From contig NHDG01000065.1 in the NCBI GenBank assembly GCA_002167285.1, positions 1 through 62,707 of the forward strand: a stretch of DNA of 62,707 nucleotides. Direction: 5' to 3'. The notes beneath the pieces are model-generated. The model did no database searches, had not been told where the DNA came from, and saw nothing but the letters and a program-made list of their open reading frames with translations. The first letter of the stretch is position 1; every line of letters begins with the position of its first letter. A program made the translations under genes and the position numbers. The stretch comes from Planctomycetia bacterium TMED53 (GTDB lineage Bacteria > Planctomycetota > UBA8108 > UBA1146). Below are positions 27,007 to 54,530 of this stretch, one piece after another.

Positions 27007-29832
27007 TTAGTCGATAAAAACAAATTCATTGAGATTCAAAATGGTGAGGCAAAACACGCTAAGTAGTTTCGTTTCATCGAGGTCGTATTTTTTACGAAGT
27101 TCTAGCAGGAAGTTGAAATGTCGATCAATCGTCGATTCGGAGACGCTCTTCTGAGTTGCCAGCTCCAATCCACGTTGGACTTTTGATCGCAAATCTGAGC
27201 ATTCCTTATTGAGCCGTTCTGCAAATCGGGTGGCTTGTACCTGAGAAAACTCACTATTGAGAAGAGTCAGGGCCTGGGTTGGTTGAACCGTGTTGAAACG
27301 GACAGGGCAAGAAGTATCGGTATCTGCCAAGTCGAAGGTGAGAAGTAGAGGGTGCAAGAGTGAGCGTTTGACTTCGATATAAATGCTTCTTCTACGAGCG
27401 AGAGGGTCATCAGGGTTTTTGTTCCAAGCATCGTTTGGTCGAGACGCAGTCGCCAATATCTCTTTAGGCATCGGCGGATGGACACTAGGACCCGTCAGTT
27501 CGAGGCTTAGATTTCCACTGACTGCCAGAACTGAATCTCTAATCTCCTCTGCGGAGAGTCTCCGACTGGGAAAACGCCAATACAGTTTATTCACGGGATC
27601 GATCTGGGCAGCAACTGAATCAAATTCTCCAGAAATTCGAAACGCCATGCTCGTCACCAATTGGCGAATCATATGCTTCATACTCCAGTTGTTTTCGACC
27701 AGTTCCAAAGCCATGGCATCGAGTAATTCTGGATGAGATGGCGGCAGACCGAAGACTCCGAAGTCGTTAGGAGTTCCAACGATGGGGCTGCCGAAGATGT
27801 GTTGCCACAGGCGATTGACGAAGACCCTTGCAGTACGAGGGTTTCTAGGATCAGTGAGCCATTTCGCCAGAGCCAATCTGCGTCCACTCGTCTCGCCATC
27901 TTCAGGCGCAATGATGGCGGCTTCTTCTCCACCCAAAAACTCTGGGAATCCGGGAGTCACGATTTCTCCGGGTGAAGAGAAATTCCCACGTTCACGAACA
28001 TGGCTTACTGGTGCACGAGAAACTTCCTGAGCGGAAAGTATATACACGAGTTCTCTGGTAGGTTTGTTGTCCTGGAAGATTCGATTGACCGCTGATTTCA
28101 TCCTAAGTGATTCAGGTGTACCCAGATGTTTTTTGACAACTTCGACGAACTCAGGAAGAAGGCCTCGGCCTTGATGCAAGCTTTCAATTTCAGCGTCGGT
28201 TAATGTTCGATCCCAGAAGCAAAGATCATCGAGAAGGCCATTGTAACTTGCGCCCCCTTTTAAGAGTCGCCCGATCAATAGTCGATCAGGGGCGGTCAAG
28301 GGTTGAGTACTGCCTTGAGCAAAACGCTCGTCTTCCGGCAGATGCTTGGTGCCATCTATCCAAAGAGCAATTTGCCCAGTGGTTTGATTGCGGGTGAAGC
28401 AGACATGGTGCCAGAGATTGTCGACCATGCCCTTAGGACCAGAGACGAAGGTCTCAGGATTTCCAGTACCTGCTGCAACCCTGCTCCCCAGAAGTGAAAT
28501 TCCATAATCATTAAGAACTCCATTGAGTTCACCGTCGACCAATCCAGTCCCCAGGAACCAGCGGCGGTCATCTCCATTCCCCGAGCCTTTACGGTCGGTC
28601 TTAAACCAGAAAGAAATGGTGAAATCATTTTCAACGGGGCGAGGGATGGAGAGATGGCTACGTCCAGTCAGTTTTAGTGCTGGTGTATTATCGCGTCCAT
28701 TTTCAAATTTGATTTCGCCCTTTACGTCGACTCTGGGAATATCAGGAGTATCAAAATCCAGTTTCAAAACTAAGCCTGATAGGAGCGATGGATCTACACT
28801 TGAAGCAGCATCTTCTCCCCACCTCGCCTTGATTTCATTAACGAGATTTTCCACCTCCTTGAGATCACCGGATCTCCTCGTTTTCCAAGAGGTGATTTCA
28901 GCATCAAAGTTGCTCGTTCCGAGATCGGCGGGGAGCCAACGGGTGAAATGATCGGTACTGATGGCGTTGCCAGCATTATCGTCATAAGGCTTGAGCCCCT
29001 CGAAAAAGGAGAGCATTCGGTAATAGTCACGGATGGGAATCGGATCGCCTTTGTGGTCGTGACAGCGGGCGCAACCCATACTGATTCCAAGCATCGATCT
29101 ACAAGTGGTATCGAGCATGCTGTCGAAGTCGTTGTAGATGGCCTGATTGGGGTCGGCCGATTCATCATCGCGAATTCCAAGGTGTAAAAACCCAGTAGCG
29201 ATATGACTTGATAAACTCTCTTCATCAATTTCATCGCCGGCGAGTTGCTCGGTGAGGAAGCGGTCGTAGGGCATATCTGCATTGAATGCATCGACTACCC
29301 AGTCACGGTACTTCCAGGCATTGGGTTTTGGACGATCTCGCTCGTATCCGTCCGTCTCTGCCCAGCGCACCAAATCGAGCCAGTGTCTTGCCCAGTGAAC
29401 ACCGAATTGTTCTGAGGCGAGGAGTTGATCGACCTGTCTTTCCCAGCGTCCGGAAACTTCAGAGTTGAGAAATGCCTGAACCTCTTCAGGGGTGGGGGGA
29501 AGACCGGTGAGAACGTAATGAAGTCGGCGCAATAAGACTTCCGGTTCAGCTTCTGGTGCAGGGGTGATTCCCGCTTCTTCAAGTGCAGTGAGCCAATGAA
29601 AGTCGATAAAGTTCTTGGGTAAGTTGTTATGGATTTTGAGTGTCGGCAGCTCAAGTTTTTCAACAGGGATGTCGCACCAAGCAGGTTCTGGAGTAGGTGT
29701 TCTTTCCTGTGCTGCGTCGTCTTCGAGGAATGTTCCTGCGATGGCAGGAAGTACCGAGACGAACATGATCACGATGGCGATCGTTTTGATCGCGGTTGTG
29801 GAAGAAGAGACACAACGGTCGATTGAAGCCAT
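27007..29832 (-). CDS. DUF1549-LamG-DUF1553 secreted protein
   Basis: The 941-residue product has an N-terminal hydrophobic segment (IKTIAIVIMFVSVLPAIAG) and three modules. DUF1549 (about 85-280) includes ARHWLDLVRWAETDGY and a single CARCH haem-like motif. A LamG/concanavalin-like sandwich (about 390-565) includes FTISFWFKTD and WHHVCFTRN. DUF1553 (about 630-890) includes FVNRLWQHIFG and PSRRLSAEEIRDSVL. The family is planctomycete-typical, often with a cytochrome-c-like domain at the front; that domain is missing here, leaving only one CxxCH. A role in handling polysaccharides has been proposed for such pairs but is unproven. It is first in an operon with the DUF1501 gene. GGGAGG lies twelve bases before the ATG. 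Confidence 0.92.
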   Translation of the reverse strand: MASIDRCVSSSTTAIKTIAIVIMFVSVLPAIAGTFLEDDAAQERTPTPEPAWCDIPVEKLELPTLKIHNNLPKNFIDFHWLTALEEAGITPAPEAEPEVLLRRLHYVLTGLPPTPEEVQAFLNSEVSGRWERQVDQLLASEQFGVHWARHWLDLVRWAETDGYERDRPKPNAWKYRDWVVDAFNADMPYDRFLTEQLAGDEIDEESLSSHIATGFLHLGIRDDESADPNQAIYNDFDSMLDTTCRSMLGISMGCARCHDHKGDPIPIRDYYRMLSFFEGLKPYDDNAGNAISTDHFTRWLPADLGTSNFDAEITSWKTRRSGDLKEVENLVNEIKARWGEDAASSVDPSLLSGLVLKLDFDTPDIPRVDVKGEIKFENGRDNTPALKLTGRSHLSIPRPVENDFTISFWFKTDRKGSGNGDDRRWFLGTGLVDGELNGVLNDYGISLLGSRVAAGTGNPETFVSGPKGMVDNLWHHVCFTRNQTTGQIALWIDGTKHLPEDERFAQGSTQPLTAPDRLLIGRLLKGGASYNGLLDDLCFWDRTLTDAEIESLHQGRGLLPEFVEVVKKHLGTPESLRMKSAVNRIFQDNKPTRELVYILSAQEVSRAPVSHVRERGNFSSPGEIVTPGFPEFLGGEEAAIIAPEDGETSGRRLALAKWLTDPRNPRTARVFVNRLWQHIFGSPIVGTPNDFGVFGLPPSHPELLDAMALELVENNWSMKHMIRQLVTSMAFRISGEFDSVAAQIDPVNKLYWRFPSRRLSAEEIRDSVLAVSGNLSLELTGPSVHPPMPKEILATASRPNDAWNKNPDDPLARRRSIYIEVKRSLLHPLLLTFDLADTDTSCPVRFNTVQPTQALTLLNSEFSQVQATRFAERLNKECSDLRSKVQRGLELATQKSVSESTIDRHFNFLLELRKKYDLDETKLLSVFCLTILNLNEFVFID

Positions 29833-37314: not shown

Positions 37315-37537
37315 GGTTTTGTTCAGAAATCTGTCCACGGGGCAATTCGCTGCCAGAGAGTCAGTGTTTGCCTACTTCTCGCTGTCCGATTACGATAGGA
37401 GCAATGGGCTGCTTGCATTCGAACCGATTCGCCTAGATCGCCCGTGGAATAGCTATCAAAGTTACTTCCCGCTGAATCATTCGAGTTCGCAAGCGATGAC
37501 AACATTTCTTACTTCTAACTTGGTGAGGAACTTTTCC

Positions 37538-40500
37538 ATGACGCTTCAATTTCAAAAAGCTCTGTTTTCGATGCTTTTGATCAGTGTGGGAATGCTTCAT
37601 TTAGCGGCAGTTTTACCAGCCCAAGAACAACTTCTTGAAGGCTTGGAGATTGAGAAACGATTTAATCCGGCAACTGGGAAGTTGCATTTCATCAAGGGGA
37701 TCGGTCGATCGCCACTGCCTCTTCCAAAAGGAGTTGAGCCCGATCTCGAGGATCCGATGCAGGCTCTTCGTCACTACGGTGCTCTCTTCGGTGTCGATGC
37801 TCCGGATGTTCAACTCACCAAAGTTCGCACGGAAAAATGCCCTTTGGGACAGATCCACCACACCTTTCAACAGGTATATCGGGGTGTTGATGTGTTGACA
37901 GGTGTCCTCAAGGTTCATCTGGCCAGTGATGGTTCGCCCCTTACGATTAATGGCGACTATTATTCGATTCCAAAGAAGCTGGAGATTTCCCCCAAGATAA
38001 TGGCTGAGCAGGCTTTGGAGCTTGCTGCCAGACACCTGGGACAGGATGTCCTCCTCGAAACTTCAGCACCCCAATTGGTGATCGTCGATCCCGGTTGGTA
38101 TGGAGATGATTCGATCGGTTCGCCTGTTCTCGCCCATCATTTGGTCGCAGAAGGCGATGGGATGATGGCAGAAAATATTCTCGTGGATGCTCGCTCTGGC
38201 GTTCTTCTCGACCATTGGCCAGCGGTTCACAGCGCGCTCATCAGAGAGATTTATGATGGATCCGGTGGTGGTGGACTTCCTGGAGCTTTTGCCAGGGGTG
38301 AGGGTTCACCAGCGAGTGGCGATATCGATATCGATAACTCCTACGACACCTGCGGAGATCTTTATCGGGTTCTCTCAGATGCTCTGGGTAGAGATGGTTT
38401 GGATGGTTTCGGCGGTTCGATGATCATCACGGCGAACTGGACTGACAACATTTGCCCTAACGCCATTTGGAATGGTACTCAGGGCGCATTTTGTTCAGGC
38501 CTTGGAACCGATGATGTTATCGCCCATGAACTTGCCCACGGATTGACTCAGTTCACTGCAAACCTCATCTACCAGAATCAATCGGGACAACTGAATGAGG
38601 CGATGTCGGATATCTTCGGAGAAGCCATCGACCTTTGGAATGGCGATGCTTCCGAGTCAGGTGCACCCGGAGGTACACCTTGGCCGATTCCAGGAACCAG
38701 TGGGCCTGGTGTCGATACTCCGAACACCGCGCGCACCGGTTGTGGGGATGGCTCAGCTCGTTGGAGAATGGGTGAGGAATCTTCTTTCGGCGCGATTCGC
38801 GATATGATGTTCCCTGAGTGTTTTAACGATCCTCCCAGCACGACCGACCCCCTCTACAATCAAAATGCCTGTGGTCCCTTCGATAATGGTGGGGTTCATA
38901 TCGGTAGCGGTGTTCTCAATCACTCTTTCGCGATGCTGGTTGACGGCAAAACCTACAATGGGCAAACGATTACACCTATTGGGATGACGAAAGCGATCGC
39001 CGTTTACTTCCGTGCCTTGACTGTCTACATGACTCAGGCCACCGACTTCCCAGAGGCCGAAGTCCATCTCAATCAGGCTGCTGCTGATCTTATCAATACC
39101 AACCCCATCGATCCCCGCACTGGAGTCGGTGGAGGAGTCTTTACTCAAGCAGATGCGGATATGATTGCCGCGGTGATGACCGCAGTGGGCATGTCTGAGT
39201 TGGTCTGTGGTCAGGTACCTCCTGGTCCTCCACCGGCGAATGACGATTGTGCCAACGCTGTTCCGGTCTTCCTTGGACTCACAGACATCGATAGCAACAA
39301 CGCGACCACCGGTGGCCCCGGACCGGATGATTCTGCTTGCCCCGGGACAGCCATCGGCGCATGTGGAAATGATATTTGGTACAGCTACACACCGGCTGAG
39401 AACGGTTTGCTCACTGTCAGTACCTGCGATATCGCCTCTTGGGATACGGATCTGCAAATCTTCGATGGCGATTGCGGTGCGCTAAATATGATCGCCTGTA
39501 ACGGAGATTCAGCGGGTTGCTCTACATTTACTTCTGAGGTCAATGATGTGGCTGTCGTGGGTGGAACCACTTACCTCATCCGAGTTTCGTCTTGGAGTGA
39601 AGGGACGACAGGTACCGGGCAAATGAATGTGACCTTTGTTCCGGATACTGGCCCGGGTGTTGAGAATTGCACCAATGGTGCAGACGACGACGGGGATGGA
39701 TTGGTCGATTGTGAAGATGCAGATTGCTCAGGGAATCCCTCGTGCATTCCTCCAGCAGCAGGAGACGAATGCGTCTCTGCTGAGATCGCTTCTCTCGGCT
39801 CGAATCCTTTTGACAGTACTAACGCAACGACGGGAGCGGATCCGATTCCCGATGCGGCCACGTGTAGTCAGGGCTTAGGTAGTATGCTGGGCGATATCTG
39901 GTTCATTTACCAACCGACTGAGTCGGGGTCCCTCTTTGTGACAACATGTTCAATCGGAAGCTTTGACAGTGACCTCGTAGCATACACGGGATCTTGCGCT
40001 TCCTTGGTCACCTTGACTTGTAATGGTGACGTCAATCAAAACCCTTCGACAACGTGTCAGCAGTACTGGTCTGAGCTCACCATGGATGTCACCGCCGGTG
40101 AAACCTACTGGTTTAGGATTGGCGCGTGGGGAACTCCCCATCCTGGAAACGGCTCGCCGGGTCCTGGTGAATTGACTCTCGAATTGACTCCTTCTGGCCC
40201 CGTTGAAAATTGCTCTAACGGAGTTGATGACGATGGTGACGGTCTCGCCGATTGTGAAGATACAGACTGTGCCGCTGACCCAGCTTGTTTGCCGGCGATC
40301 CCCGGTAACGAATGCGATCTCGCCCTTACCGCGATTCTTGGGTCCAACCCGCTTGATACTACGTCAATGACAACAGGAGCCGATCCCATCGACGACTCCA
40401 ACTGTACCGGAGCTTTCCTCGGAGAGTTTGTTCAAGATGTTTGGTATGTCTTCACTCCGTCAAGTACCGGTGAGTATGTCATTGCCACCTGTGACACCGT

Positions 40501-42355
40501 TAACTTTGACTCAGATATTTTGGTTTACAGCGGGACCTGTGGCGCATTAACCCCGATCGCTTGCAATGGGGATGGAACCAACTGCGCTGGGCTGACCAGC
40601 TCCGTCACCGTTAACCTGAACAGTGGAGATCCGATACTTATTCGGGTAGGAGGCTGGAACCCTGCCGCTGTGGGAACCGGTACCCTTGAAATCAGTACGA
40701 CTGCGCCTCCTCCACCTCCCGAAAATTGCTCCAATGGGATCGATGATGATTTAGATGGACTCGCCGATTGTGAAGATACCGACTGCATCGCTGATCCCGA
40801 TTGCATCTGCGAAGCAGCATTAAACTTCTCGTGTGATCAGGGCAGTGGGAATTCGGTCAGTTTGAGCTGGACCAATGGAGAAGCCTACCAGTCGATTGAA
40901 ATCCTCAGGGACGGTGCACTTCTGACAACATTGCCGGGAGACAGCACTGGGTATGTGGATTCGTCGGTCGCAGTTGGAGCGAGAATTTACACCCTTGCAC
41001 CTACATGTAACGTCAGTCAGGCAGCCCCAGTCAGTGTTTGTGAGGTGGATGTAGTTCAGCAGATTGGCTTCATGTTTAGTGTTGCCGATGTGAGTGGTTC
41101 ATACAGCCCAAGTGGCGCGACCTTTGGAGCGTCGATTTCGCTCATGGAGCTGGCGACGAATGCTGGATTCCCCACCGAAACGGCAGGATTCTCATTCGGG
41201 CTTGCCCACGATGAAAACCTCTTCGAGTCGACTGGTGCGCAAGCAGTTGGTCCCCTTGCCGATTTGGATGCAGGCTCCGGCCCAGCGTTCTTTGATGTTT
41301 CCAACTTCGCGAATGGCGTCACTCTCGGCTGTGTTTACGACTTCTCTTTGACCGAGTCAATCCAGTTTGTTTCAGCTACAGAAATCGTTTCCATTGATTA
41401 CAGTGCGCTGCCTGGAGCGCTTTCCAATTCCTCAGGGACCGTCAACTCTTCCCTGAGTTTCGTTGAGACTCTTGGCTCGCCACCAGTGGAAATGATTATC
41501 TCCACTGCTTCAGGGTCGGCAGTCGCTGCTGGTGGAAATTCTTCGAGCATCACCTTGGATCCAAGTGGGTTCATCATGACCGTCGTCGATCAATCTGTGG
41601 ATTACCCTGAATCGACAGGAGCCGCTTCCTTCGCTGCTGCGATTACCTTTGAGGAAGATTCTGCAAATCCGGGCTTCCCCAACGGCACACAGGCATTTTC
41701 ATTGGGAGTGGTCCATAATCCGGGGCTATTGTCAGCTGACGGTGCAACAGCGGGTGATCTCCTTTTGGCTCTCAATAGTAATTCCGGTCCTGATTTCTTC
41801 GATGTGAATTCCTTCAGTGATGGAATGACGATTGGGTGTGTTTACACATTCGTCGGTACTGACGTCCTCAGTTTCGCGACTCCTACGGAAGTGTTGACCT
41901 TGAACTACAACACCGTGGAAGCAGCGTTGATCGGGGCTTCAGAATCAACTACGACGCAGCTTCAATTCTCAGAAGCTCTGGGATCTCCGCCTGTTGAGCT
42001 CGTAGTGGTGGTGGGTTCCGGTTCCCAGGGAGTTCAGGGGCAAAACGGTACCATCACTCTGAACCCAGTCGTTGGTGGAGGATTTATCAGGGGAGACGTC
42101 AACGATGATAGTTTGCTTAATCTCGCTGACGCGGTCTTCCTTCTCGACGGCCTCTTCCTCGGAGGGGTCATCACCTGTAGAGATGCCGGTGATACGAATG
42201 ATGACGAACTCAATAACGTCGCCGATGCGGTTTACCTGCTGAGTTACCTCTTCATCAACGGGCCTGCGATACCTGATCCTGGAAGTTCTGGGTTCTGTGG
42301 GCCTGATCCTGCAGGGACTGCGCTCGATTGTGGCGAGTACAATTCTTGCCCATGA
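37538..42355 (+). CDS. M4 (thermolysin-like) metalloprotease with PPC-like, Fn3-like, cohesin-like and dockerin-like modules
   Basis: The 1605-residue product is the largest here. After a signal peptide comes an M4 propeptide (about 35-215; FTP-like) and the M4 catalytic domain (about 230-560), with HELAHG at residue 330 and downstream QLNEAMSDIFGE giving the third zinc ligand. Three PPC-like domains follow, each opening NDDCANA, GDECVSA or GNECDLA. They alternate with three acidic segments (ENCxNGxDDDxDGLxDCxDxDC). Then an Fn3-like unit, two cohesin-like domains (GFSFGLAHDENLF, AFSLGVVHNPGLL) and a dockerin-like end with Cys tail NSCP. It is probably a secreted endopeptidase anchored by its C-terminal modules. 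I chose ATG 37538 (GAGGAA at seven bases); the TTG frame from 37319 lacks a leader. Hairpins flank the gene. Confidence 0.93.
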   Translation: MTLQFQKALFSMLLISVGMLHLAAVLPAQEQLLEGLEIEKRFNPATGKLHFIKGIGRSPLPLPKGVEPDLEDPMQALRHYGALFGVDAPDVQLTKVRTEKCPLGQIHHTFQQVYRGVDVLTGVLKVHLASDGSPLTINGDYYSIPKKLEISPKIMAEQALELAARHLGQDVLLETSAPQLVIVDPGWYGDDSIGSPVLAHHLVAEGDGMMAENILVDARSGVLLDHWPAVHSALIREIYDGSGGGGLPGAFARGEGSPASGDIDIDNSYDTCGDLYRVLSDALGRDGLDGFGGSMIITANWTDNICPNAIWNGTQGAFCSGLGTDDVIAHELAHGLTQFTANLIYQNQSGQLNEAMSDIFGEAIDLWNGDASESGAPGGTPWPIPGTSGPGVDTPNTARTGCGDGSARWRMGEESSFGAIRDMMFPECFNDPPSTTDPLYNQNACGPFDNGGVHIGSGVLNHSFAMLVDGKTYNGQTITPIGMTKAIAVYFRALTVYMTQATDFPEAEVHLNQAAADLINTNPIDPRTGVGGGVFTQADADMIAAVMTAVGMSELVCGQVPPGPPPANDDCANAVPVFLGLTDIDSNNATTGGPGPDDSACPGTAIGACGNDIWYSYTPAENGLLTVSTCDIASWDTDLQIFDGDCGALNMIACNGDSAGCSTFTSEVNDVAVVGGTTYLIRVSSWSEGTTGTGQMNVTFVPDTGPGVENCTNGADDDGDGLVDCEDADCSGNPSCIPPAAGDECVSAEIASLGSNPFDSTNATTGADPIPDAATCSQGLGSMLGDIWFIYQPTESGSLFVTTCSIGSFDSDLVAYTGSCASLVTLTCNGDVNQNPSTTCQQYWSELTMDVTAGETYWFRIGAWGTPHPGNGSPGPGELTLELTPSGPVENCSNGVDDDGDGLADCEDTDCAADPACLPAIPGNECDLALTAILGSNPLDTTSMTTGADPIDDSNCTGAFLGEFVQDVWYVFTPSSTGEYVIATCDTVNFDSDILVYSGTCGALTPIACNGDGTNCAGLTSSVTVNLNSGDPILIRVGGWNPAAVGTGTLEISTTAPPPPPENCSNGIDDDLDGLADCEDTDCIADPDCICEAALNFSCDQGSGNSVSLSWTNGEAYQSIEILRDGALLTTLPGDSTGYVDSSVAVGARIYTLAPTCNVSQAAPVSVCEVDVVQQIGFMFSVADVSGSYSPSGATFGASISLMELATNAGFPTETAGFSFGLAHDENLFESTGAQAVGPLADLDAGSGPAFFDVSNFANGVTLGCVYDFSLTESIQFVSATEIVSIDYSALPGALSNSSGTVNSSLSFVETLGSPPVEMIISTASGSAVAAGGNSSSITLDPSGFIMTVVDQSVDYPESTGAASFAAAITFEEDSANPGFPNGTQAFSLGVVHNPGLLSADGATAGDLLLALNSNSGPDFFDVNSFSDGMTIGCVYTFVGTDVLSFATPTEVLTLNYNTVEAALIGASESTTTQLQFSEALGSPPVELVVVVGSGSQGVQGQNGTITLNPVVGGGFIRGDVNDDSLLNLADAVFLLDGLFLGGVITCRDAGDTNDDELNNVADAVYLLSYLFINGPAIPDPGSSGFCGPDPAGTALDCGEYNSCP

Positions 42356-42420: not shown

Positions 42421-42780
42421 TCAAATTTCTTCGTACGACTCCACAGTGATATCCGCTTTGACGTCTCCTGTATGTTTCGTACTCATCGGTTCGAAGAGTA
42501 AAATGTGAGTTTCTTCTTCGGCGATGGGTTTGTGTTCTACACCTTTGGGGACGATATAAAACTCTCCTGGGTTGACGACGACTGTTTGATCTCGCATTTC
42601 AAGCTTCAATTGACCCTTCATCACCATAAACAATTCGTCTTCTTCATCGTGTTTATGGAAGACAAATTCACCTTGGACCTTGGCGATGATCACCTGTTGC
42701 CCGTTGAGTTCACCGATTCGTTTTGGCGACCAATGATCATTGAAGAGGGAAAATTTTTCAGAGACGTTAACGACGTTCAT
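42421..42780 (-). CDS. Small single-domain cupin
   Basis: The 119-residue product is one cupin beta barrel. Motif 1 is HKHDEEDELFMVMKG and motif 2 is PGEFYIVPKGVEHKP, which together supply the metal-binding His and Glu residues. Such small cupins bind metals or sugars or act as isomerases or dioxygenases; no specific role can be given. The gene stands alone between convergent and divergent neighbours. The 178 bases upstream (42781-42958) are shared with the divergent LOG family gene and show no clear dyad. Confidence 0.88.
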   Translation of the reverse strand: MNVVNVSEKFSLFNDHWSPKRIGELNGQQVIIAKVQGEFVFHKHDEEDELFMVMKGQLKLEMRDQTVVVNPGEFYIVPKGVEHKPIAEEETHILLFEPMSTKHTGDVKADITVESYEEI

Positions 42781-42958
42781 GGAGGACCGCTTTCAGTGCT
42801 GCAAAAATTCGAGGATTTGCTGACCTCATCAATCTATCGAGTCGATTCTGTCAGGCAAGTGGCCACTGCTTTCGCTTTGACGGAGGATTCCAACTCACTC
42901 CTTGACCTGACCCTTTCCCGGTTGACGATGTCGCCACCGTTTAATCGAGAGGAATGAT

Positions 42959-43516
42959 ATGGAAATCGCAGTTTACTGCTCTGCCAGTGAAGATATTCGA
43001 GCTCCATTTCTAAATGATGCTGAAGATTTGGGGGCAGCTATCGCCTCCAGCAATAACGGCCTGATTTTTGGTGGTGGAAATATCGGCTCGATGGGCAGGC
43101 TTGGTCGGGCGGTTCATCAGGGAGGCGGCAGAGTAACCTCTGTAATACCCCGCTTTTTCGATGATCAGGGACTCACTCTCGAGGAATCAGACGAAGTCAT
43201 CTTTACTGATGAGATGCAGGAACGTCGCAAGATCATGTGGGAAAGAAGTTCTGGGGCGATCGTTTTGCCTGGAGGGCTGGGGACGCTGGAAGAGGCGGTC
43301 GAGTTTTTGGTACTCAATCAGCTGTCTTTGATCGATCGACCGCTGGTCTTTGCCAATGTTGATTGCTATTGGCAGCCGTTCTTCGATTTGATCGAGCATA
43401 TGTTGGAAGAAAAGATGCTCACGAAGGAGCATTCGCAATTGTTTCATGTAGCAGATTCCGGTGTCAAATCCCTGCACCTTTTGGAATCCCTTTGCAGCTC
43501 TACAGGTGACCGCTGA
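42959..43516 (+). CDS. LOG family phosphoribohydrolase (TIGR00730-like)
   Basis: The 185-residue product matches the LOG family. Members cleave nucleoside 5'-monophosphates such as AMP or cytokinin riboside monophosphate to base and ribose 5-phosphate. Visible motifs are YCSASED near the N-terminus, GGGNIGSMG, and the signature region RRKIMWERS with LPGGLGTLEE. GAGG lies six bases before the ATG. The stop shares one base with the start of the DinB gene, so the two are translationally coupled. Confidence 0.93.
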   Translation: MEIAVYCSASEDIRAPFLNDAEDLGAAIASSNNGLIFGGGNIGSMGRLGRAVHQGGGRVTSVIPRFFDDQGLTLEESDEVIFTDEMQERRKIMWERSSGAIVLPGGLGTLEEAVEFLVLNQLSLIDRPLVFANVDCYWQPFFDLIEHMLEEKMLTKEHSQLFHVADSGVKSLHLLESLCSSTGDR

Positions 43517-44046
43517 TGGCAGACTTCGAAGGCGATCGCAGTAACTTACAGCAGGAAGGGGTCCGTAGATTGACCTCTTCTTTGGGGGCGATCATGGCAC
43601 TGGCGGAATCTGTTCCAGAAGAGGATTCTGATTGGATTCCTGATCAGGGGCAGTGGTGCTTAAGGGAAATCGTTGGCCATTTGATCGACGGTGATCGAGA
43701 AATTTTTCGAATGAGATTGGAACTTCTGTTTTCAGGAAGCCTTGAAGAGTGGCCTAGCATGGATCCTGAGGAGTGGGTGTCTGAGCGGAAATATCGTGAA
43801 AGAACCCTGCGTGAGCTGCTGAGGTTGTTCCAGGATGAGCGTCAAAGGTCTCTCGCTTGGTTGGCGAGTTTGGATGAGCCGGATTGGTTCCTTGAGCGAG
43901 ATCTACTGGATGGGCCATTGAAAGCCGGCGATCTACTGCTGTCTTGGTGTACTCATGACACCTTGCATTTGGATCAAATTTCCCGCTGGTGCGTTGCCAA
44001 GGCGCGGCAAGATCATGACCACTTTGGTGATGATTTCGCCTATTGA
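43516..44046 (+). CDS. DinB/YfiT-like metal-binding four-helix protein
   Basis: The 176-residue product belongs to the DinB superfamily. The three metal-binding histidines are likely in VGHLIDGDREIF (about residue 55) and in THDTLHLDQISRW (about 155-160). Members are often thiol-dependent transferases or isomerases, or unknown. The start shares one base with the stop of the LOG gene. It converges on the thioredoxin-fold gene, with 33 bases between. Confidence 0.88.
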   Translation: MADFEGDRSNLQQEGVRRLTSSLGAIMALAESVPEEDSDWIPDQGQWCLREIVGHLIDGDREIFRMRLELLFSGSLEEWPSMDPEEWVSERKYRERTLRELLRLFQDERQRSLAWLASLDEPDWFLERDLLDGPLKAGDLLLSWCTHDTLHLDQISRWCVAKARQDHDHFGDDFAY

Positions 44047-44079
44047 TCGATCTGCATCATAGTAGATATCAGTCCACAC

Positions 44080-44841
44080 TTATTCTCTGCGACGGGGAGG
44101 TATGTGTGGATCTGAGACTTTGATCTCTGTTTCCCATGATTTGTTGAGACGCTGGCCTCTGGAGACGTGCCGGCGATAGTTCTTTTGGGCTGGCCTTGCC
44201 GATTGAAGCGCTACTGAGAGAGCCGCTTTAATTTCTTTAGTGGAGGCGTTCGCGGAGAGTTTCTTGAGAGAGGTGGCTTTAAGGCCGAACTCTCCTGGCT
44301 TGCAGATGTAGATGGCGGGACCTTCTACAGGTAATCCGATGGCCTGCACTTCTTCTTTGTTGTCAGTGGAGCTCCAACCAAGTCGCCCCCTAAAGGGTGC
44401 TTCCCAAGCGAGCTGACGCAATTCCACCATCGTCGATTCAGAAACTCGGTCTGCCAAGACCAAGAGTTGGCGATCGCAGGCTGCGACGTTCAGCGACCGG
44501 CGCAAATCCTTGGAAACGGGTAAGGGGGGGAGTCCAGATGGATTTTCTTTTCCCGGATACTTTTGGGCGATGGCGTGAAGTTCGAGGGCGAGGATGGTCG
44601 ACTCCCAGCCAACGGATCCCCCGAAGGCCATCTGAGGAGTGCGCCCAGAACGACTCAATCGCGTTTTTCCATCGGGGGCCAACATGACGAACACAGTGTT
44701 TTCAAGTTCACCATTGCGTCCACGGTATAGCTTTTTGAGAAGCTCGCCTTCTTTCGCATCTTCATAAGTAGAAAGGCGGGCACAGACAAATTTTTCTGAG
44801 AGTCTGATGACTTCTGGGTCGGACCAGAAACTCTGATCCAT
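44080..44841 (-). CDS. Thioredoxin-fold protein, C-terminal part after an in-frame TGA
   Basis: This 253-residue frame is in the same reading frame as the upstream 44857-45120 frame, separated only by TGA at 44857-44859 and five sense codons. It begins inside a thioredoxin-like domain: MDQSFWSDPEVI is the helix that in related thioredoxin-fold proteins (DUF255/SSP411-like) follows the redox motif, and ENTVFVMLAPDG is a later core strand. The rest (about 100-253) is not recognised; it is Lys/Arg-rich near the end. It has no signal peptide of its own, and the ATG at 44841 has only a weak AAGAG directly upstream, so independent translation is unlikely. The best readings are one protein of about 346 residues with TGA read as selenocysteine, or a recently interrupted gene. 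Confidence 0.75.
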   Translation of the reverse strand: MDQSFWSDPEVIRLSEKFVCARLSTYEDAKEGELLKKLYRGRNGELENTVFVMLAPDGKTRLSRSGRTPQMAFGGSVGWESTILALELHAIAQKYPGKENPSGLPPLPVSKDLRRSLNVAACDRQLLVLADRVSESTMVELRQLAWEAPFRGRLGWSSTDNKEEVQAIGLPVEGPAIYICKPGEFGLKATSLKKLSANASTKEIKAALSVALQSARPAQKNYRRHVSRGQRLNKSWETEIKVSDPHIPPRRRE

Positions 44842-44859
44842 CTCTTGTTTTCCCGGTCA
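44812..44859 (-). other. In-frame TGA with downstream hairpin candidates (possible bacterial SECIS)
   Basis: On the minus strand the TGA (44859-44857) sits between Trp (GIPGIW) and PGKQEM. About 27 bases later, TTCTGG and CCAGAA (44829-44824 and 44817-44812) form a hairpin with a six-base loop, putting the loop about 33 bases from the TGA. A second, weaker stem starts 11 bases after the TGA with a GG-leading loop. Bacterial SECIS elements lie within this range and usually carry G early in the loop. Short hairpins arise by chance, so this is suggestive only. Confidence 0.4.
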
Positions 44860-45120
44860 CCAAATTCCTGGAATCCCTCTGCACTGGGGTGCGGCGGAGA
44901 GGAGCAAGATCGCTTTACCAGTTCTTTTCGCTTCGGCTGTGGCAGCGTCCCAAGTTCCAATCCAGGCGATCCCTTTAGGGTGCTGAAACTTCTCAGCGAC
45001 CGCAGGTGCTTTCTTTGGAGTACCTTTCGGGTCATCGAGGCTGACACCCGGAAGTAAGCCCAAAGGAGGAACTGAGAGAGTGGTGTTCACCAGTAGCAGA
45101 AGTGGAAGCAGATTGAACAT
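44857..45120 (-). CDS. Thioredoxin-fold protein, N-terminal part with signal peptide, ending at in-frame TGA
   Basis: The 87-residue frame begins with a signal peptide (FNLLPLLLLVNTTLSV) and enters a thioredoxin-like fold: TWDAATAEAKRTGKAILLL is the typical helix-strand before the redox site, and AAPQC with GIPGIW is where the active site should lie. The frame then stops at TGA 44857-44859, in mid-domain, and resumes in the same frame. No CxxC is seen; if TGA encodes selenocysteine, the redox residues would be the Cys of APQC and Sec eight residues later. It would be exported to the periplasm or envelope. Divergent from the LamG/phosphatase gene 74 bases away. Confidence 0.7.
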   Translation of the reverse strand: MFNLLPLLLLVNTTLSVPPLGLLPGVSLDDPKGTPKKAPAVAEKFQHPKGIAWIGTWDAATAEAKRTGKAILLLSAAPQCRGIPGIW

Positions 45121-45194
45121 GGAATTCTCCTCTTCTATATCTCAAGATAACCCCAGTTTTGAACTCAAGTTTCTTTTTGTTGGAGGATTAACGG

Positions 45195-47117
45195 ATGTCC
45201 CCCCAATTCTACCGTGTATCGCCATCTGATTTCAGTGAGAAGTGTCAGCGAAATTATTGGCTGTGGCTCTTGATGCTCATCTGTGCCCTACAATTCGGGT
45301 TTGTTGTTGAGGCCCAACAGGATTCCCTGGAATCCCCATTCTTACAATGGGAGTTTCGGGCGTCCTACTTGGATGACGATGGTTCTTTCCGCTCTCGCGA
45401 TGGTCGAATCACTGGGAGTATCAGTGGAGATCTATCACTGAAGAATTCCGAGAGCGGAGTCTCATTGCTCGCAGAGGGGGGCAGCGGAATGCTGCTGCTG
45501 GGGGAGTCTTATTCAAAGCTTAAGGATCATTTACCTCAGCGTGAACTGACCGTCTCTTGCTGGGTTTCTCAGGATGAGATTCTCGAGTGGGGAGGCCTTT
45601 TAGGATTTCTCCAGGATAACGGCGACTATGAAAAGGGTTGGGTACTGGGATCGACAAAGGGGCAAGCTTGCTTGGCGATCGCTTCCAAGGGGGCTGATGA
45701 TGGGAATGGGAAGCTCACTTATCTTTCTGGAGGAGATCCGCTTCAACCGGGCCGGTGGTATCACATCGCCGGAAGCTACGATGGTGAGAGGATGGCAGTA
45801 TATGTAGACGGAAAACTCGTTGCTGAATCGAATGATCAGAGTGGCGACATCTTGTATCCGGATCGTGCTCCATTTGTTATTGGCGCTTATCGAGACGACA
45901 ATGAGTTTCATCCCCACGTTGGAGCGTTACAGGATTTCCGATTATGGAAAACGGCTTTGACCGCCGAGCAGATTGCCATACTTCATCGGAACAAGCCGGC
46001 CTGCGCTTCTGCCGATCCACCGAGACCACCTTTGAAATTTACGGTAGCTCCTTGGTTACAGTGGGCTGAAGAGGATGGAATCACCGTTAGTTGTGAGACT
46101 TCCATGGATTGCCAGGTGGTCGTTGAGTACGGCCTCAATTCAGAACTGGGAAAAGCGGCCAGGTCTTCAGCTTCTGGCAGAATGCACCATGTGAAGTTGT
46201 CTTCCCTAGAAAAAGGAACTCCCCACTTCTACAAGGTGACTGCTATTCGGAAAGGTAAGGGAGAGGAGGTCTTGGAGTCTCCGATCTTGACCTTTCAAAC
46301 AAAAACCGATGCGGACCAGGCATTTGGATTTATGGTTGTGGGTGACACTCAGAACAATCCTCAAGTGACTGCAGCAGTGACGGACCTAGCATGGGGACAC
46401 CGACCCAATTTTGTCATTCATTGCGGAGACTTGGTGGGTACCGGCTCAAACAAGCGAGAGTGGGTTCACGAGTTTTTTGCTGGAGCATCTCGGTTGCTAC
46501 AAAGGGTTCCGATTTATCCGAGCTTGGGCAATCACGAACAAAATGCCCAACTTTACTACGACTACTTCACGCTTCCTGACCCCGAGTACTATTACGACTT
46601 TGAATGGGGTAATACTCACTTTGTTGTGATCGATACGAATAAACCGATTCGGCCTGACTCTGATCAGGTGAGGTGGCTAGAGAAAACCTTGGCGAGGAGT
46701 TCTTCTGACTGGAAGGTGGTGTATCACCATCACCCAGCTTGGACCTCCGACGAAAATGATTACGGGAACACTTGGAAGGGATCTTCAACCCAGGGAGTCA
46801 CGGCGATTCAGAAGCATCTGGTTCCGATCTACGAAAAGCATGGGGTCGACGTGGTTTTCAATGGGCATATCCATGTGTACGAACGAACCTGGCCAATTCG
46901 TAATGGCAAGACGGTTGGTCCAGGGGAGGGAGTTGTTTACATTACTGGGGGAGGCGGAGGTGGGCACCTCGAAGGTTTCGCCCCCAATAGAACCTGGTTC
47001 AGTAACAATAAACGTGTCGATCACCACTTTCTCATCGTCAACGTCAATGGGAAGCAGATGGAGATTTCTGCATACGACATTGATGGTCGGTTGTTCGACA
47101 GAATCATTCTCGATTAA
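45195..47117 (+). CDS. Secreted LamG plus purple acid phosphatase-like metallophosphoesterase
   Basis: The 640-residue product has a signal segment (WLWLLMLICALQFGFVVEA), a LamG-like sandwich (about 45-255; LTVSCWVSQDE, WYHIAGSYDG), an Fn3-like purple-acid-phosphatase N-domain (about 270-375) and a metallophosphoesterase (about 380-610). The metal-binding motifs are complete: VGDTQ, CGDLVG, GNHE, HHHP and GHIHVYER. It should hydrolyse phosphate esters outside the cytoplasm, perhaps on a glycan or nucleotide; the LamG part could bind a carbohydrate. GGAGG precedes the ATG. The DUF4261 and NeuC-like genes follow closely on the same strand. Confidence 0.93.
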   Translation: MSPQFYRVSPSDFSEKCQRNYWLWLLMLICALQFGFVVEAQQDSLESPFLQWEFRASYLDDDGSFRSRDGRITGSISGDLSLKNSESGVSLLAEGGSGMLLLGESYSKLKDHLPQRELTVSCWVSQDEILEWGGLLGFLQDNGDYEKGWVLGSTKGQACLAIASKGADDGNGKLTYLSGGDPLQPGRWYHIAGSYDGERMAVYVDGKLVAESNDQSGDILYPDRAPFVIGAYRDDNEFHPHVGALQDFRLWKTALTAEQIAILHRNKPACASADPPRPPLKFTVAPWLQWAEEDGITVSCETSMDCQVVVEYGLNSELGKAARSSASGRMHHVKLSSLEKGTPHFYKVTAIRKGKGEEVLESPILTFQTKTDADQAFGFMVVGDTQNNPQVTAAVTDLAWGHRPNFVIHCGDLVGTGSNKREWVHEFFAGASRLLQRVPIYPSLGNHEQNAQLYYDYFTLPDPEYYYDFEWGNTHFVVIDTNKPIRPDSDQVRWLEKTLARSSSDWKVVYHHHPAWTSDENDYGNTWKGSSTQGVTAIQKHLVPIYEKHGVDVVFNGHIHVYERTWPIRNGKTVGPGEGVVYITGGGGGGHLEGFAPNRTWFSNNKRVDHHFLIVNVNGKQMEISAYDIDGRLFDRIILD

Positions 47118-47131
47118 CCCGGCAGGTAATC

Positions 47132-48010
47132 ATGATCTCGATCATCCCACTGAAGGCAGCGCCTGATCATTCTCTCTCGGAGCTTGGGGATCTTCTCAGG
47201 GATCTCCTGGGAGAAGAGACCATCGTCCGTTTGGCAGACGAAGGACAGACCGTCGTTGCCGAAATCGCCGGGGTCACGATCAAGGTCACTCTTTGTGAGG
47301 AATCGGTTCCCGCAGAGATCATCGATGGCCCACTCGCCGCAGCATGGTATTGGGAGGAAGCGAAGGAAGCCTTGGCTGGGCATTCTGCCCACTTCGTTGT
47401 CGTCGTGTCAGATCCAAGGTTACCCAAAATTGTGCCTTTTGATGATGGATCAGGAAATGAACCCCAGATGGAGCCATTTTCTGAGAGTGGGGTTATCGAG
47501 ATCTATCCGGAGGCTCCTGCGGCGCCACCTTTGAGTGCGGAGCACATTCGTTACTCCGTACAGGATGCACTCTTGTTGACGAGGGTCTCTCTTTCTTTGG
47601 GGTCTCATTGCTCACCCCTTGCGGTTTATTGGGATGGTTCGACATCCATCCACTCATGGTCCGCATTCGAAGAATCATGTTCGGCGATGACGCCAACAAA
47701 TTTACCACTACGAATCTGGATCGATTTTCGACTCTGGGAGGCGAAGGATGGATCAAGGGGATTGGTAACGCGGGGAATGTCCGCCCTTTGTCAGAGGGAA
47801 CTGGAAGTGATCGGGTCAACGAGTAGCGCGCAGCAAATTCGTGCTTGGAGCTACACTGTCGCTCACTACTGCTTGGAAAAAACAAAGGTTTTGGAGCATG
47901 GCCAAGCGGTTGGAATCTCCCCTAAAGAGTGGATCCGTACATGGATCGTTAACAGCCGCCTCGAACCGGGAACTTGGGCGACATGGCTCGATCTTGAGGC
48001 GGAGGAGTAA
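47132..48010 (+). CDS. DUF4261-like protein of unknown function
   Basis: The 292-residue product has no signal peptide or membrane helix. The C-terminal half resembles DUF4261: a segment with TRGMSALCQRELEV, then a helix, then LEHGQAVGIS. The N-terminal third (AHFVVVVSD strand) fits the same family. Function is unknown. It begins 14 bases after the phosphoesterase stop and ends four bases before the NeuC-like ATG, so the three form an operon. Confidence 0.7.
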   Translation: MISIIPLKAAPDHSLSELGDLLRDLLGEETIVRLADEGQTVVAEIAGVTIKVTLCEESVPAEIIDGPLAAAWYWEEAKEALAGHSAHFVVVVSDPRLPKIVPFDDGSGNEPQMEPFSESGVIEIYPEAPAAPPLSAEHIRYSVQDALLLTRVSLSLGSHCSPLAVYWDGSTSIHSWSAFEESCSAMTPTNLPLRIWIDFRLWEAKDGSRGLVTRGMSALCQRELEVIGSTSSAQQIRAWSYTVAHYCLEKTKVLEHGQAVGISPKEWIRTWIVNSRLEPGTWATWLDLEAEE

Positions 48011-51017: not shown

Positions 51018-54000
51018 TCAGGGGCAGGGGTCGTAAGCAGCGCAGTCGAGCGGATCGTCGGTGGGATCAGGTCCACAGACACCGAAAGGATCGGGAAGAG
51101 GACCGGAGCCACTAAAGAGACTACCTAGGGCGGCGATCGCATCGGCAATGTTGATGCCGCCGTCGTCGTTGGCATCACAAGAGTCGAGGCAAGGCCCTTC
51201 TGGACCGCCGGAGAAGAGGTTGCCAAGGACGAAAACTGCATCGGCGATGTTGAAGGCTCCATCCGCGTTGCAATCACCACGCTGGAACCCTCCTCCTGGA
51301 GGGGCACCACCGGTCAGGAAGTCGTAGTAGGCAGCGACGAGGGCATCCCGGTCACCGCCATATCCACCCAGCTCGAAGGAGGCGCAGATTACTCGTCCTC
51401 CGGTGTCAGGGGTATACGCGGTGGTCACACCGTAATCGACTCCGAGAGCATCGTCGTACTTCCATACCAGGCCAGCAGTTCCTCCTGCGGGTTCTGCAGT
51501 TGCCGGGATCAGAATGTTGTTGAAGTCATTCGGATTTCCGGTCGTGGATTGATTGTCCTGGTTGTATGGGACGTTTTGATTGGCCGACATATCGAGACCG
51601 ACACCGCTATCGAGGCCATCCAGAGAGGAGAGGGAATCGTTGTCATCCTGTGCGTAAGGTTCCGCTACTCCATCGCGATCATCGAAAGCTGAAATCGGGT
51701 GTTGGAAACTCCAGTGATCAGCGCTCTCGAAGTAGATGGCCATTCCTGCTTCTGCAAGCGAGGCGATCAAGTTGGCTTCCTCGCTATTGAGTCGCGCGTT
51801 CGTTGGGAAGGTTCCGAGGACGATCCATACTTGCGAGACTTGGGCGGGATCGAGGCAGGCGTATTCGTCAATCTGCATGCGAACCAATTTGGAGTTCACA
51901 CCCGCTGCAACAAGACTCTGTTGGATCGCGGCACCGGTATCATTCGAACCGGTATCTCCACCGTCGAAGAGGCCTTCCATAGCGATGACGATGGCGTCTT
52001 CACCGTTGTAGCTGTAGTGGTCGGTAAAGCCGGAAGCCTCACCCGCACCGGCGGTGCAGTTACCACGCACGATGTAGTTCAGGAAGCCCTCCGGTGGAGA
52101 GGCGTCTGAGTAAGTGGTGGCGTCACCCGGCAGATTGGCGACGACAACACCGTCGCGCTCAATCGTGATGCCGGTGTAAGCACTATTGTTGACCCAAGTC
52201 AGATCTACGGTGTCGAGGGAGCAAGAGCTGGTCACCGTTAAGTCGGTGGGGACATTGCATTCGACAGCACAGACTTGAAGTGCCCAGCTGGAAATCGTCG
52301 CTGTGGCTGCGGTGTTGGTGATGGTCAGGGTCCAATCGCCACCGATGGTTTCACCGTCAAAATCGGCGAGGGTTCCTGGCCCTGAAGGAATCAACGATCC
52401 GAAGCCGTCATTGTTACCCGTGACATCATCGAATCGGCCGATCAGGTCTGTTCCCGCAGCGTTGTCGTGGAGTCGAATGCTGGTTCCGGCAGGGGAGAGG
52501 AGATCCATCTCGATACCGCTGAGATCAGGAGCAGACAGGTTCATGTCCACATCAAGGTCAGCGATTCCAACCAGGGAAGCTGGATCGATACTGATGACAA
52601 AGTTTTCGACCCCGGAAATATCCGCAGGCTGAGAGATCATGACGCTCCAATCATCGAGAACTCCGCCGTTGGTGTTGAAGAAGGTATCAGCGATGAAGAT
52701 GGTCCAGCTACCAGCTGCAGGTGTTCCATCGAAGTCGGCCAGGGATCCCGTGCTTTGAGAGAGAGCGTAAGGCTGCATGCGGGCACCACTGAAGGTCGTT
52801 ACACTGCCGTAGGGGGCTCCCTCATCGTCAAAGATCAGGTTCATGTTGTCATCAGAGTTGTTATTTACGTTTTGGTAGAGGCGAACTTGATCATTGTTTG
52901 GAGCGATCAAGTCGATGTCGAGGTTACCGATGAAGCCGTGGGTGATATTGACGCCCACATCGAGGTCGTCGATGTTTCCGGCTGCGGTCACCGTGATGGT
53001 GTCGAAGGTGAAGTTCGCAGCGGGATCACCGACGTACTCGATCACGGCTGCTGGCGCATTGGAATCAGTGATGCCGATAAATCCATCAAAGGAGAGGTTT
53101 GGATTCGGGAACTGGTGGCAATCAGCGGGGGGGCAGCTGACGTCCAAGGTCAGTTCTCCACGTTCACCATTGAAGCCTCCGATTTGCACCAGGTAGGTTT
53201 CTCCAGCGACAGCATCGAGGAAGATCTCTGGTTCACCGGAACCGGTGCAGCTTCCCGCGTCGCACGCCAGTTCTGAAGCGGCATCTGGTGGGCATGCCGA
53301 AGTTCCAGGGTAGATCGCCATCTGCGGGTTGAAATTGGCGCTGCCACAGGTACTGAGAAGCACTATTCCACTGCAACTTGCGGTGTAGAGGTACCAGACG
53401 TCATTCAACGTACTGCCTCCACAGGAGGTTGGACCGTCTGTCGTTGCTCCATAAGTGGTGACCGCAAAAGTTCCTTCACCGATACCGGTGGCTCCAACGC
53501 AATCATCATTGGCAGGGGCCGGTGCGCAGAAGGGGTCTCCAATGCAATCGTCATCGAGACAGTCGATGAGTGCGTCACCGTCATCATCGAGGCCATTGTC
53601 GCAGATCTCTGGGCACACATTGGGAAGGCCGGGGGTGTCGATCGTCAGATCACTGAAAGATTGGATTTCCCAATCGCCAGTACCATCGGGACAGCGGACG
53701 ATGTGACCCGGGACGAACGTCCCCTCAGGGCCAACGGTGTTGGCGCAGTAGATGAGCTCGCCATCAACCGGCAACCCGGTGACAGGATCGAGCTCGTTTT
53801 CAAGCAGTGCGATGCAGTCTACCACTGAGGTCCATGGGGTTACGTCGAGATTGCCGTCATCATCGGTATCGAGGTCATCGCCACTTGCTCCCGAGAAGCC
53901 TTCAACCAGCAGGTGAGTGACATTATCACTATTTTCAAAGTTGAGATCTGCTGTCAGGCTTGCAGTTCCGAGAGTGAAACTACTTTCTGCAACAACAAAT

Positions 54001-54257
54001 ACCCCACTGAGGTCGATTTGGGTTCCCGCCAAACTGACGACTGCTTCGATGGTGCCACTGGCAGTTGATCCATCGCCAATCACGATGTAGGTCAAAGCTG
54101 TCAGGCTCGTGTTGGGGGGGCCCCAAAGCTCGAAGTATTCATCGGTATCGCTGCTAGGCATATCGATGCGAATTTCATTGATCGTCACTTGACCGTATGA
54201 AGTTCCGGAAACGATGAAGAAAAGGACCAGAAGAATCCCTGATAAAACTCTGTTCAT
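51018..54257 (-). CDS. Giant secreted protein: LTD-like, PPC-like, two P-domain-like, Fn3-like, EGGD and dockerin-like modules
   Basis: The 1079-residue product has a signal peptide (VLSGILLVLFFIVSG), then a lamin-tail-like domain (VTINEIRIDMPSSDTDEYFE). An acidic Cys segment (CDNGLDDDGD) leads to a PPC-like domain (ANDDCVG, NDVWYLYTA). Two proprotein-convertase P-domain-like sandwiches follow (HGFIGNLDIDLIAPN, then a second). After an Fn3-like unit comes the EGGD domain (VWIVLGTFP, IYFESADHWSF, SFELGGYGGD). The dockerin-like end (GDCNADGAFNIADA, DANDDGGINIADA) has a Cys tail ending DPCP. It is surely extracellular; no catalytic residues were found. ATG 54257 is preceded by AGGAGG at eight bases. 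A strong terminator follows. Confidence 0.88.
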   Translation of the reverse strand: MNRVLSGILLVLFFIVSGTSYGQVTINEIRIDMPSSDTDEYFELWGPPNTSLTALTYIVIGDGSTASGTIEAVVSLAGTQIDLSGVFVVAESSFTLGTASLTADLNFENSDNVTHLLVEGFSGASGDDLDTDDDGNLDVTPWTSVVDCIALLENELDPVTGLPVDGELIYCANTVGPEGTFVPGHIVRCPDGTGDWEIQSFSDLTIDTPGLPNVCPEICDNGLDDDGDALIDCLDDDCIGDPFCAPAPANDDCVGATGIGEGTFAVTTYGATTDGPTSCGGSTLNDVWYLYTASCSGIVLLSTCGSANFNPQMAIYPGTSACPPDAASELACDAGSCTGSGEPEIFLDAVAGETYLVQIGGFNGERGELTLDVSCPPADCHQFPNPNLSFDGFIGITDSNAPAAVIEYVGDPAANFTFDTITVTAAGNIDDLDVGVNITHGFIGNLDIDLIAPNNDQVRLYQNVNNNSDDNMNLIFDDEGAPYGSVTTFSGARMQPYALSQSTGSLADFDGTPAAGSWTIFIADTFFNTNGGVLDDWSVMISQPADISGVENFVISIDPASLVGIADLDVDMNLSAPDLSGIEMDLLSPAGTSIRLHDNAAGTDLIGRFDDVTGNNDGFGSLIPSGPGTLADFDGETIGGDWTLTITNTAATATISSWALQVCAVECNVPTDLTVTSSCSLDTVDLTWVNNSAYTGITIERDGVVVANLPGDATTYSDASPPEGFLNYIVRGNCTAGAGEASGFTDHYSYNGEDAIVIAMEGLFDGGDTGSNDTGAAIQQSLVAAGVNSKLVRMQIDEYACLDPAQVSQVWIVLGTFPTNARLNSEEANLIASLAEAGMAIYFESADHWSFQHPISAFDDRDGVAEPYAQDDNDSLSSLDGLDSGVGLDMSANQNVPYNQDNQSTTGNPNDFNNILIPATAEPAGGTAGLVWKYDDALGVDYGVTTAYTPDTGGRVICASFELGGYGGDRDALVAAYYDFLTGGAPPGGGFQRGDCNADGAFNIADAVFVLGNLFSGGPEGPCLDSCDANDDGGINIADAIAALGSLFSGSGPLPDPFGVCGPDPTDDPLDCAAYDPCP

Positions 54258-54530
54258 TTCACTTACCTCCTGAACTGGACTCACGTGAATCTGTTCAAAT
54301 GAAGTCGTAAACTACCTTGATTAACCCTGCCAAAGACGGGGTAGTAGTGTCCAACATGGACGGGTACACCTCCCAGAGGAATCGTTTCAGAAACGGATTT
54401 CTCTGACCTCAAAAGTAAACCGATTGGATGAAAATCACCCACATCTCATCGTAAAGGTCTGAGGAGGCTGCCGCAACATTCCCGGCCCTTATTCTCTGTG
54501 AAGAAAATCAGAAAATCCCATGATGGAGAC
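54258..54530. promoter_or_regulatory. Leader region upstream of the 51-54 kb gene
   Basis: This stretch, with the adjacent terminator, makes a 347-base gap between two minus-strand giant genes. It holds the AGGAGG of the downstream gene at its left end. Apart from the terminator at 54531-54568, no dyad or open frame of interest was found. Confidence 0.4.

Follow-up and report, generated by a model that had tools for sequence, protein, structure and literature searches.

The question raised by this locus is whether a TGA that interrupts a thioredoxin-fold gene of Planctomycetia bacterium TMED53 is a stop codon or a codon for selenocysteine (Sec). The gene occupies positions 44080-45120 of the window, by which we mean the whole 62,707-nt stretch of DNA that was analyzed, and, like all of its features given below, is on the minus strand. 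It would encode 346 residues followed by a TAA stop, with the in-frame TGA at codon 88.

Gene layout and conservation of codon 88

A ribosome binding site recognized from the sequence (AGGAG, 45127-45131) lies 6 nt 5′ of the ATG at 45120, from which 87 codons lead to the TGA (44857-44859) and a further 258 codons to the TAA at 44082-44080. A reading of this DNA from sequence only had described two open frames in one frame, parted by nothing but a TGA, and our reading of the minus strand agrees that TGA 44859-44857 is the sole break between them. The motif around codon 88 is C-x7-U, ending in GIW-U-PGK. The mechanical list of open reading frames holds only the 253-codon piece that starts at Met94 (44841), and standard gene calling cuts each gene of this family at the UGA. 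Since 13 further TGA-split frames were found within the window using a loose definition, the split frame by itself was not taken as sufficient, and the case for a selenoprotein was built on homologues.

Homologues were sought in 294 relatives, in 392 genomes of the phylum and in 400 relatives of one distant member. Codon 88 is TGA in all 55 Sec-type homologues read (43 genes, G078, another ten, and G411), which come from about 50 genomes and at least 15 taxonomic families; conservation of this order excludes a chance in-frame TGA. The main alignment comprises 41 homologues with 32-67% identity to the window gene; the reading frame 3′ of the TGA is conserved as far as the C-terminus, and G85, W87, U88, C113, R115, N141, and W329 are among the invariant residues. 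A scan of a genome collection with a single query sequence returned one close relative only, the viral contigs and plasmids scanned contained no relatives, and Rfam gave nothing meaningful on the gene.

The SECIS-like hairpin and the Sec machinery of the host

Bacterial SECIS elements carry an apical loop with a G in its first two bases, ~16-37 nt from the UGA. The window gene has a 9-bp hairpin of this form at 44820-44840, the loop of which (GUU in the RNA; GTT at 44831-44829) begins 25 nt 3′ of the UGA. Two short hairpins with SECIS spacing had been proposed from the sequence; one hairpin of that kind, 44840-44820, is real. The hairpin was tested on a 48-nt ungapped alignment (A2), with columns 20-28/32-40 as the stem. 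Stem cells were paired in 92.4% of cases vs. 23-53% in slid versions of the stem, 31 cells were changed on both sides vs. 10 in shuffles, and the covariation score of 0.364 (vs. 0.204 in shuffles) was reached in 0/500. Folding of the alignment with no stem given beforehand recovered a nearly identical stem, and 89 of 99 stem positions were paired in 11 sequences outside the stem definition. A SECIS-like hairpin with covariation is thus found at the right distance, where a SECIS prediction had been suggested.

The stem also leaves its mark on the protein. Ser97 is encoded by AGT in 37/37 cases, compared to 60/867 (7%) in the rest of these genes, and Arg96 by AGG in 16/20 compared to 61/1047 (6%), in tests that ignore relatedness. 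In addition, Q96 occurs with W99 (13/13) and R96 with L99 (19/20). As far as these aligned genes can tell, the stem forces codon choice and couples residues 96 and 99. Almost every TGA gene preserves the hairpin; it is degraded in six homologues with Cys at codon 88, which retain only 4-6 of the nine stem pairs and have lost the AGT loop codon. Folding-energy z-scores against synonymous shuffles were modest (mean −1.5; p < 0.05 in 40% of genes; z of −0.05 for the window gene). The probable reason is that the amino acids, too, are tied to the stem; covariation and codon choice are stronger tests than a shuffle energy z-score.

The host genome is a 2.98-Mb draft (83% complete, 125 contigs), and the search for selA, selB, selC, and selD that had been recommended found all four. 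Contig C8 carries a cluster of selC (C8:19228-19321; tRNA-Sec with a UCA anticodon), selD (C8:19509-20435; L094:4400-5436), and selA (C8:20605-21699), while selB (C96:107251-109128) is located apart from it. The host's selD has an in-frame TGA of its own, in the motif CAGUAAK, and is itself a selenoprotein gene.

Cysteine forms and other explanations of the TGA

We suspected early on that this was an obligate-Sec family without a Cys form, but that suspicion was overturned by Cys homologues in the wider search. The searches found homologues without an internal stop in seven genomes of one taxonomic family (f88), and the codon-88 position is Cys (TGC or TGT) in all six that were read. The aligned codon is therefore TGA or Cys, and the earlier placement of the TGA at the redox motif, where relatives carry Cys, is borne out: in the alignment, codon 88 falls on the first active-site Cys in Thioredoxin_7/TXNDC12-like proteins. 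No selA match was found in the six Cys-form genomes, two of which are 98-99% complete, and the same search did find selA in the Sec-type genomes G343 and G411. In the first set of genomes, selA occurs in 40 of 42 family-positive genomes vs. 170 of the 252 remaining ones (Fisher p 7e-5); the two family-positive genomes lacking selA are both drafts in which selB scores above its cut-off. In a FastTree tree the Cys genes fall into two distinct clades, each embedded among Sec genes, with G643 next to G343 (support 0.999) and the other five together (1.0) and joined to G054 (0.916). At least two Sec-to-Cys switches would be the simplest reading of this tree, which has only a midpoint root and in which transfer is possible.

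Could the TGA be explained without Sec? An isolated in-frame TGA could be an error in a draft assembly of 83% completeness and 125 contigs, and the sequence-only reading had itself cautioned that this one might be a fresh mutation or a sequencing error. The caution is refuted by conservation of the codon across the phylum: with the same TGA shared by 55 genes of about 50 genomes and followed by a frame that is conserved to the C-terminus, a fresh nonsense mutation, a pseudogene or a sequencing error has a negligible probability. We give just as little credence to two separate genes, or to translational re-initiation at Met94. An ATG does lie 15 nt after the TGA (44841), but no more than 24 of 41 homologues have Met94, so there is no conserved independent start at this point; furthermore, a split would cut the Thioredoxin_7 domain, and the Cys homologues continue through the site without a stop. 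Decoding of the UGA as Trp, leaky termination or genome-wide reassignment is likewise very improbable, even though plain readthrough, too, would preserve an open frame after the TGA. TGA serves as the terminal stop of other genes in the window and of many homologues, and the genomes without selA have Cys at codon 88, never Trp. Moreover, reading the codon as Trp or as a leaky stop leaves both the hairpin and the association with selA and selB unexplained.

Taken together, a conserved TGA, Cys homologues and a hairpin are what comparative analysis ordinarily accepts as proof of a bacterial selenoprotein, and by this route the in-frame TGA is genuine and almost certainly inserts Sec. We are thus highly confident in predicting a functional selenoprotein gene, in which UGA 88 would be read as Sec, directed by the hairpin 25 nt downstream and by the host's SelA, SelB, SelC, and SelD, and of which the product would be a putative exported thioredoxin-fold oxidoreductase.

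The predicted protein and its relation to known families

The product is likely an exported protein of two domains, an N-terminal Sec-containing thioredoxin_7 domain and a C-terminal degenerate thioredoxin fold. Its hydrophobic N-terminus constitutes a putative signal peptide (about codons 1-20; 45061-45120), and a hydrophobic 10-mer (>1.8 Kyte-Doolittle) is found near the start of 39 of 43 homologues, making export likely. The Thioredoxin_7 domain (Pfam PF13899; residues 52-118; 44767-44967) scores 26.9 bits in the window gene vs. a cut-off of 27, and 37 of 41 homologues match the model at E ≤ 0.01. When aligned to TXNDC12, Sec88 coincides with the first active-site Cys, and the second active-site position is Lys or Tyr; hence, in place of the CxxC motif of PF13899, the family has UPGK or UPGY, and CPGK in its Cys forms. 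Two other cysteines are conserved. Cys80 (44881-44883), eight residues before Sec, is present in 39 of 41 aligned homologues, and in the two that lack it, both paralogues, a Cys stands 9 or 11 residues ahead of Sec instead. Cys113 (44782-44784), in a predicted strand after the active-site helix, is present in 41/41. The C-terminal domain (about residues 206-308; 44197-44505) has no CxxC and was recognized with AlphaFold2 and Foldseek. Using shallow two-sequence alignments, AlphaFold2 was confident only in this C-terminal part, the top Foldseek match of which is the thioredoxin domain of yeast Grx3 (3d6i; E 9.5e-4); from the same two-sequence alignments (mean pLDDT 44 and 53), the N-terminal Sec domain gave no confident model and no useful fold match.

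On these grounds the protein may be a thioredoxin-fold thiol/disulfide (or peroxide) oxidoreductase, in which Sec88, standing where the usual CxxC begins, would be the attacking nucleophile. Because the second Cys of the CxxC is replaced by Lys or Tyr, Cys80 in the preceding loop is the most likely resolving thiol, with the invariant Cys113 as an alternative. Binding of a partner or substrate is the probable role of the degenerate second domain. The mechanism, though not the assignment of Sec, has a rival in a one-Sec enzyme, a reductase or peroxidase in which Cys113 or an external thiol would resolve Sec88. Cys113 and Arg115 are invariant, and two paralogues have Cys80 shifted by one to three residues, both of which observations favor such an enzyme; on the other hand, a Cys 8-11 residues before Sec occurs in every TGA homologue with the loop inspected. 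We consider resolution by Cys113 or an external thiol quite possible, albeit somewhat doubtful, and retain Cys80 as the preferred resolving residue.

The genes around the locus (42421-48010) encode a cupin, a LOG/lysine-decarboxylase-like protein, a DinB_2 protein, a metallophosphatase with Laminin_G_3, and a DUF4261 protein. Their order is kept in a close relative (L048), in part in a member of the same family (L097), and no further; outside close relatives, the gene neighbors give no pointer to a pathway. Elsewhere in the window, a PSD1 (PF07587) domain protein is encoded at 27121-27882 on the minus strand, one of five PSD1 domains in the genome, which are in keeping with a planctomycete source, and large secreted proteins at 37319-42355 and 51018-54284 have repeated NG-DDD-DG-DCED motifs and C-terminal dockerin-like GD-N-D-ADA repeats.

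With ~55 members, this is a probable new, previously unlisted family of putative exported thioredoxin-like selenoproteins in the Planctomycetota. We lean, if only slightly, toward a fuller picture of a phylum-wide, ancestrally Sec-containing family with C-x7-U, an invariant strand Cys, Lys or Tyr at the second CxxC position and a fused degenerate thioredoxin domain, in which the SECIS stem dictates amino acids (R96/L99 to Q96/W99) and Sec was replaced by Cys at least twice in genomes without selA. Such an apparently new and widespread family matters in a phylum with a little-described selenoproteome. It also offers a clean natural experiment, in which genomes with the machinery have Sec and those lacking selA have Cys, and a case of an RNA stem that visibly constrains a protein. 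Some selenoprotein methods filter candidates by Cys homologues (PMC12013277), and such filters could easily miss this family since its Cys forms were found here in one taxonomic family only. No NCBIfam model scores above its cut-off for the family, and an inventory from 2026 that covers 119 families of prokaryotic selenoproteins (PMC13188914) has no entry with its motif and architecture. In the literature on the motif and on selenoproteins of planctomycetes, taken apart from GenBank and from the supplementary lists of PMC4807772 (candidates in two planctomycetes), we found no description of it.

Comparison with known systems places the family among thioredoxin-like proteins and sets it apart from each. 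Of 41 members, 37 match PF13899 Thioredoxin_7, whose active-site position and following helix align with the window gene; in contrast to that domain, the window gene has Sec for the first active-site Cys, lacks the second (UPGK), and has an extra loop with Cys80. The nearest NCBIfam family, the Trx7/PDZ domain-containing (seleno)proteins (trx7_PDZ_seleno, NF041199), likewise has a Thioredoxin_7-type domain and is described as a selenoprotein family, but its Sec motif is given as CxxU (PMC13188914), whereas the window gene has Sec at the first active-site position and a thioredoxin-like C-terminal domain. The NF041199 model gives members of our family 13-24 bits vs. a cut-off of 300, over the first 60-70 of its 390 positions, and does not match the window gene. 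The VPGUxxT selenoproteins (NF041383 and NF041382) are also thioredoxin-like, and their models give weak partial matches to the family (e.g., 13.8 bits vs. 275). Several distant Thioredoxin_7 proteins of the same phylum carry at their active site an in-frame TGA, in the motifs UPAC, UPPC, USVC, UMLC or CTUNNG (loci L117, L118, L120, and L121 in G060, G312, G106, and G029; L116 and L119 in G073 and G052), which suggests several more candidate Sec thioredoxin_7 families. Those with UPAC, UPPC, UMLC or USVC have motifs of the UxxC type, known from thioredoxin-fold selenoproteins such as thioredoxin and thiol:disulfide interchange protein (PMC13188914, Table 1). Like these UxxC selenoproteins, the window gene has Sec at the attacking position of a thioredoxin fold; unlike them, its motif has no second Cys, and a Cys is found eight residues before Sec instead.
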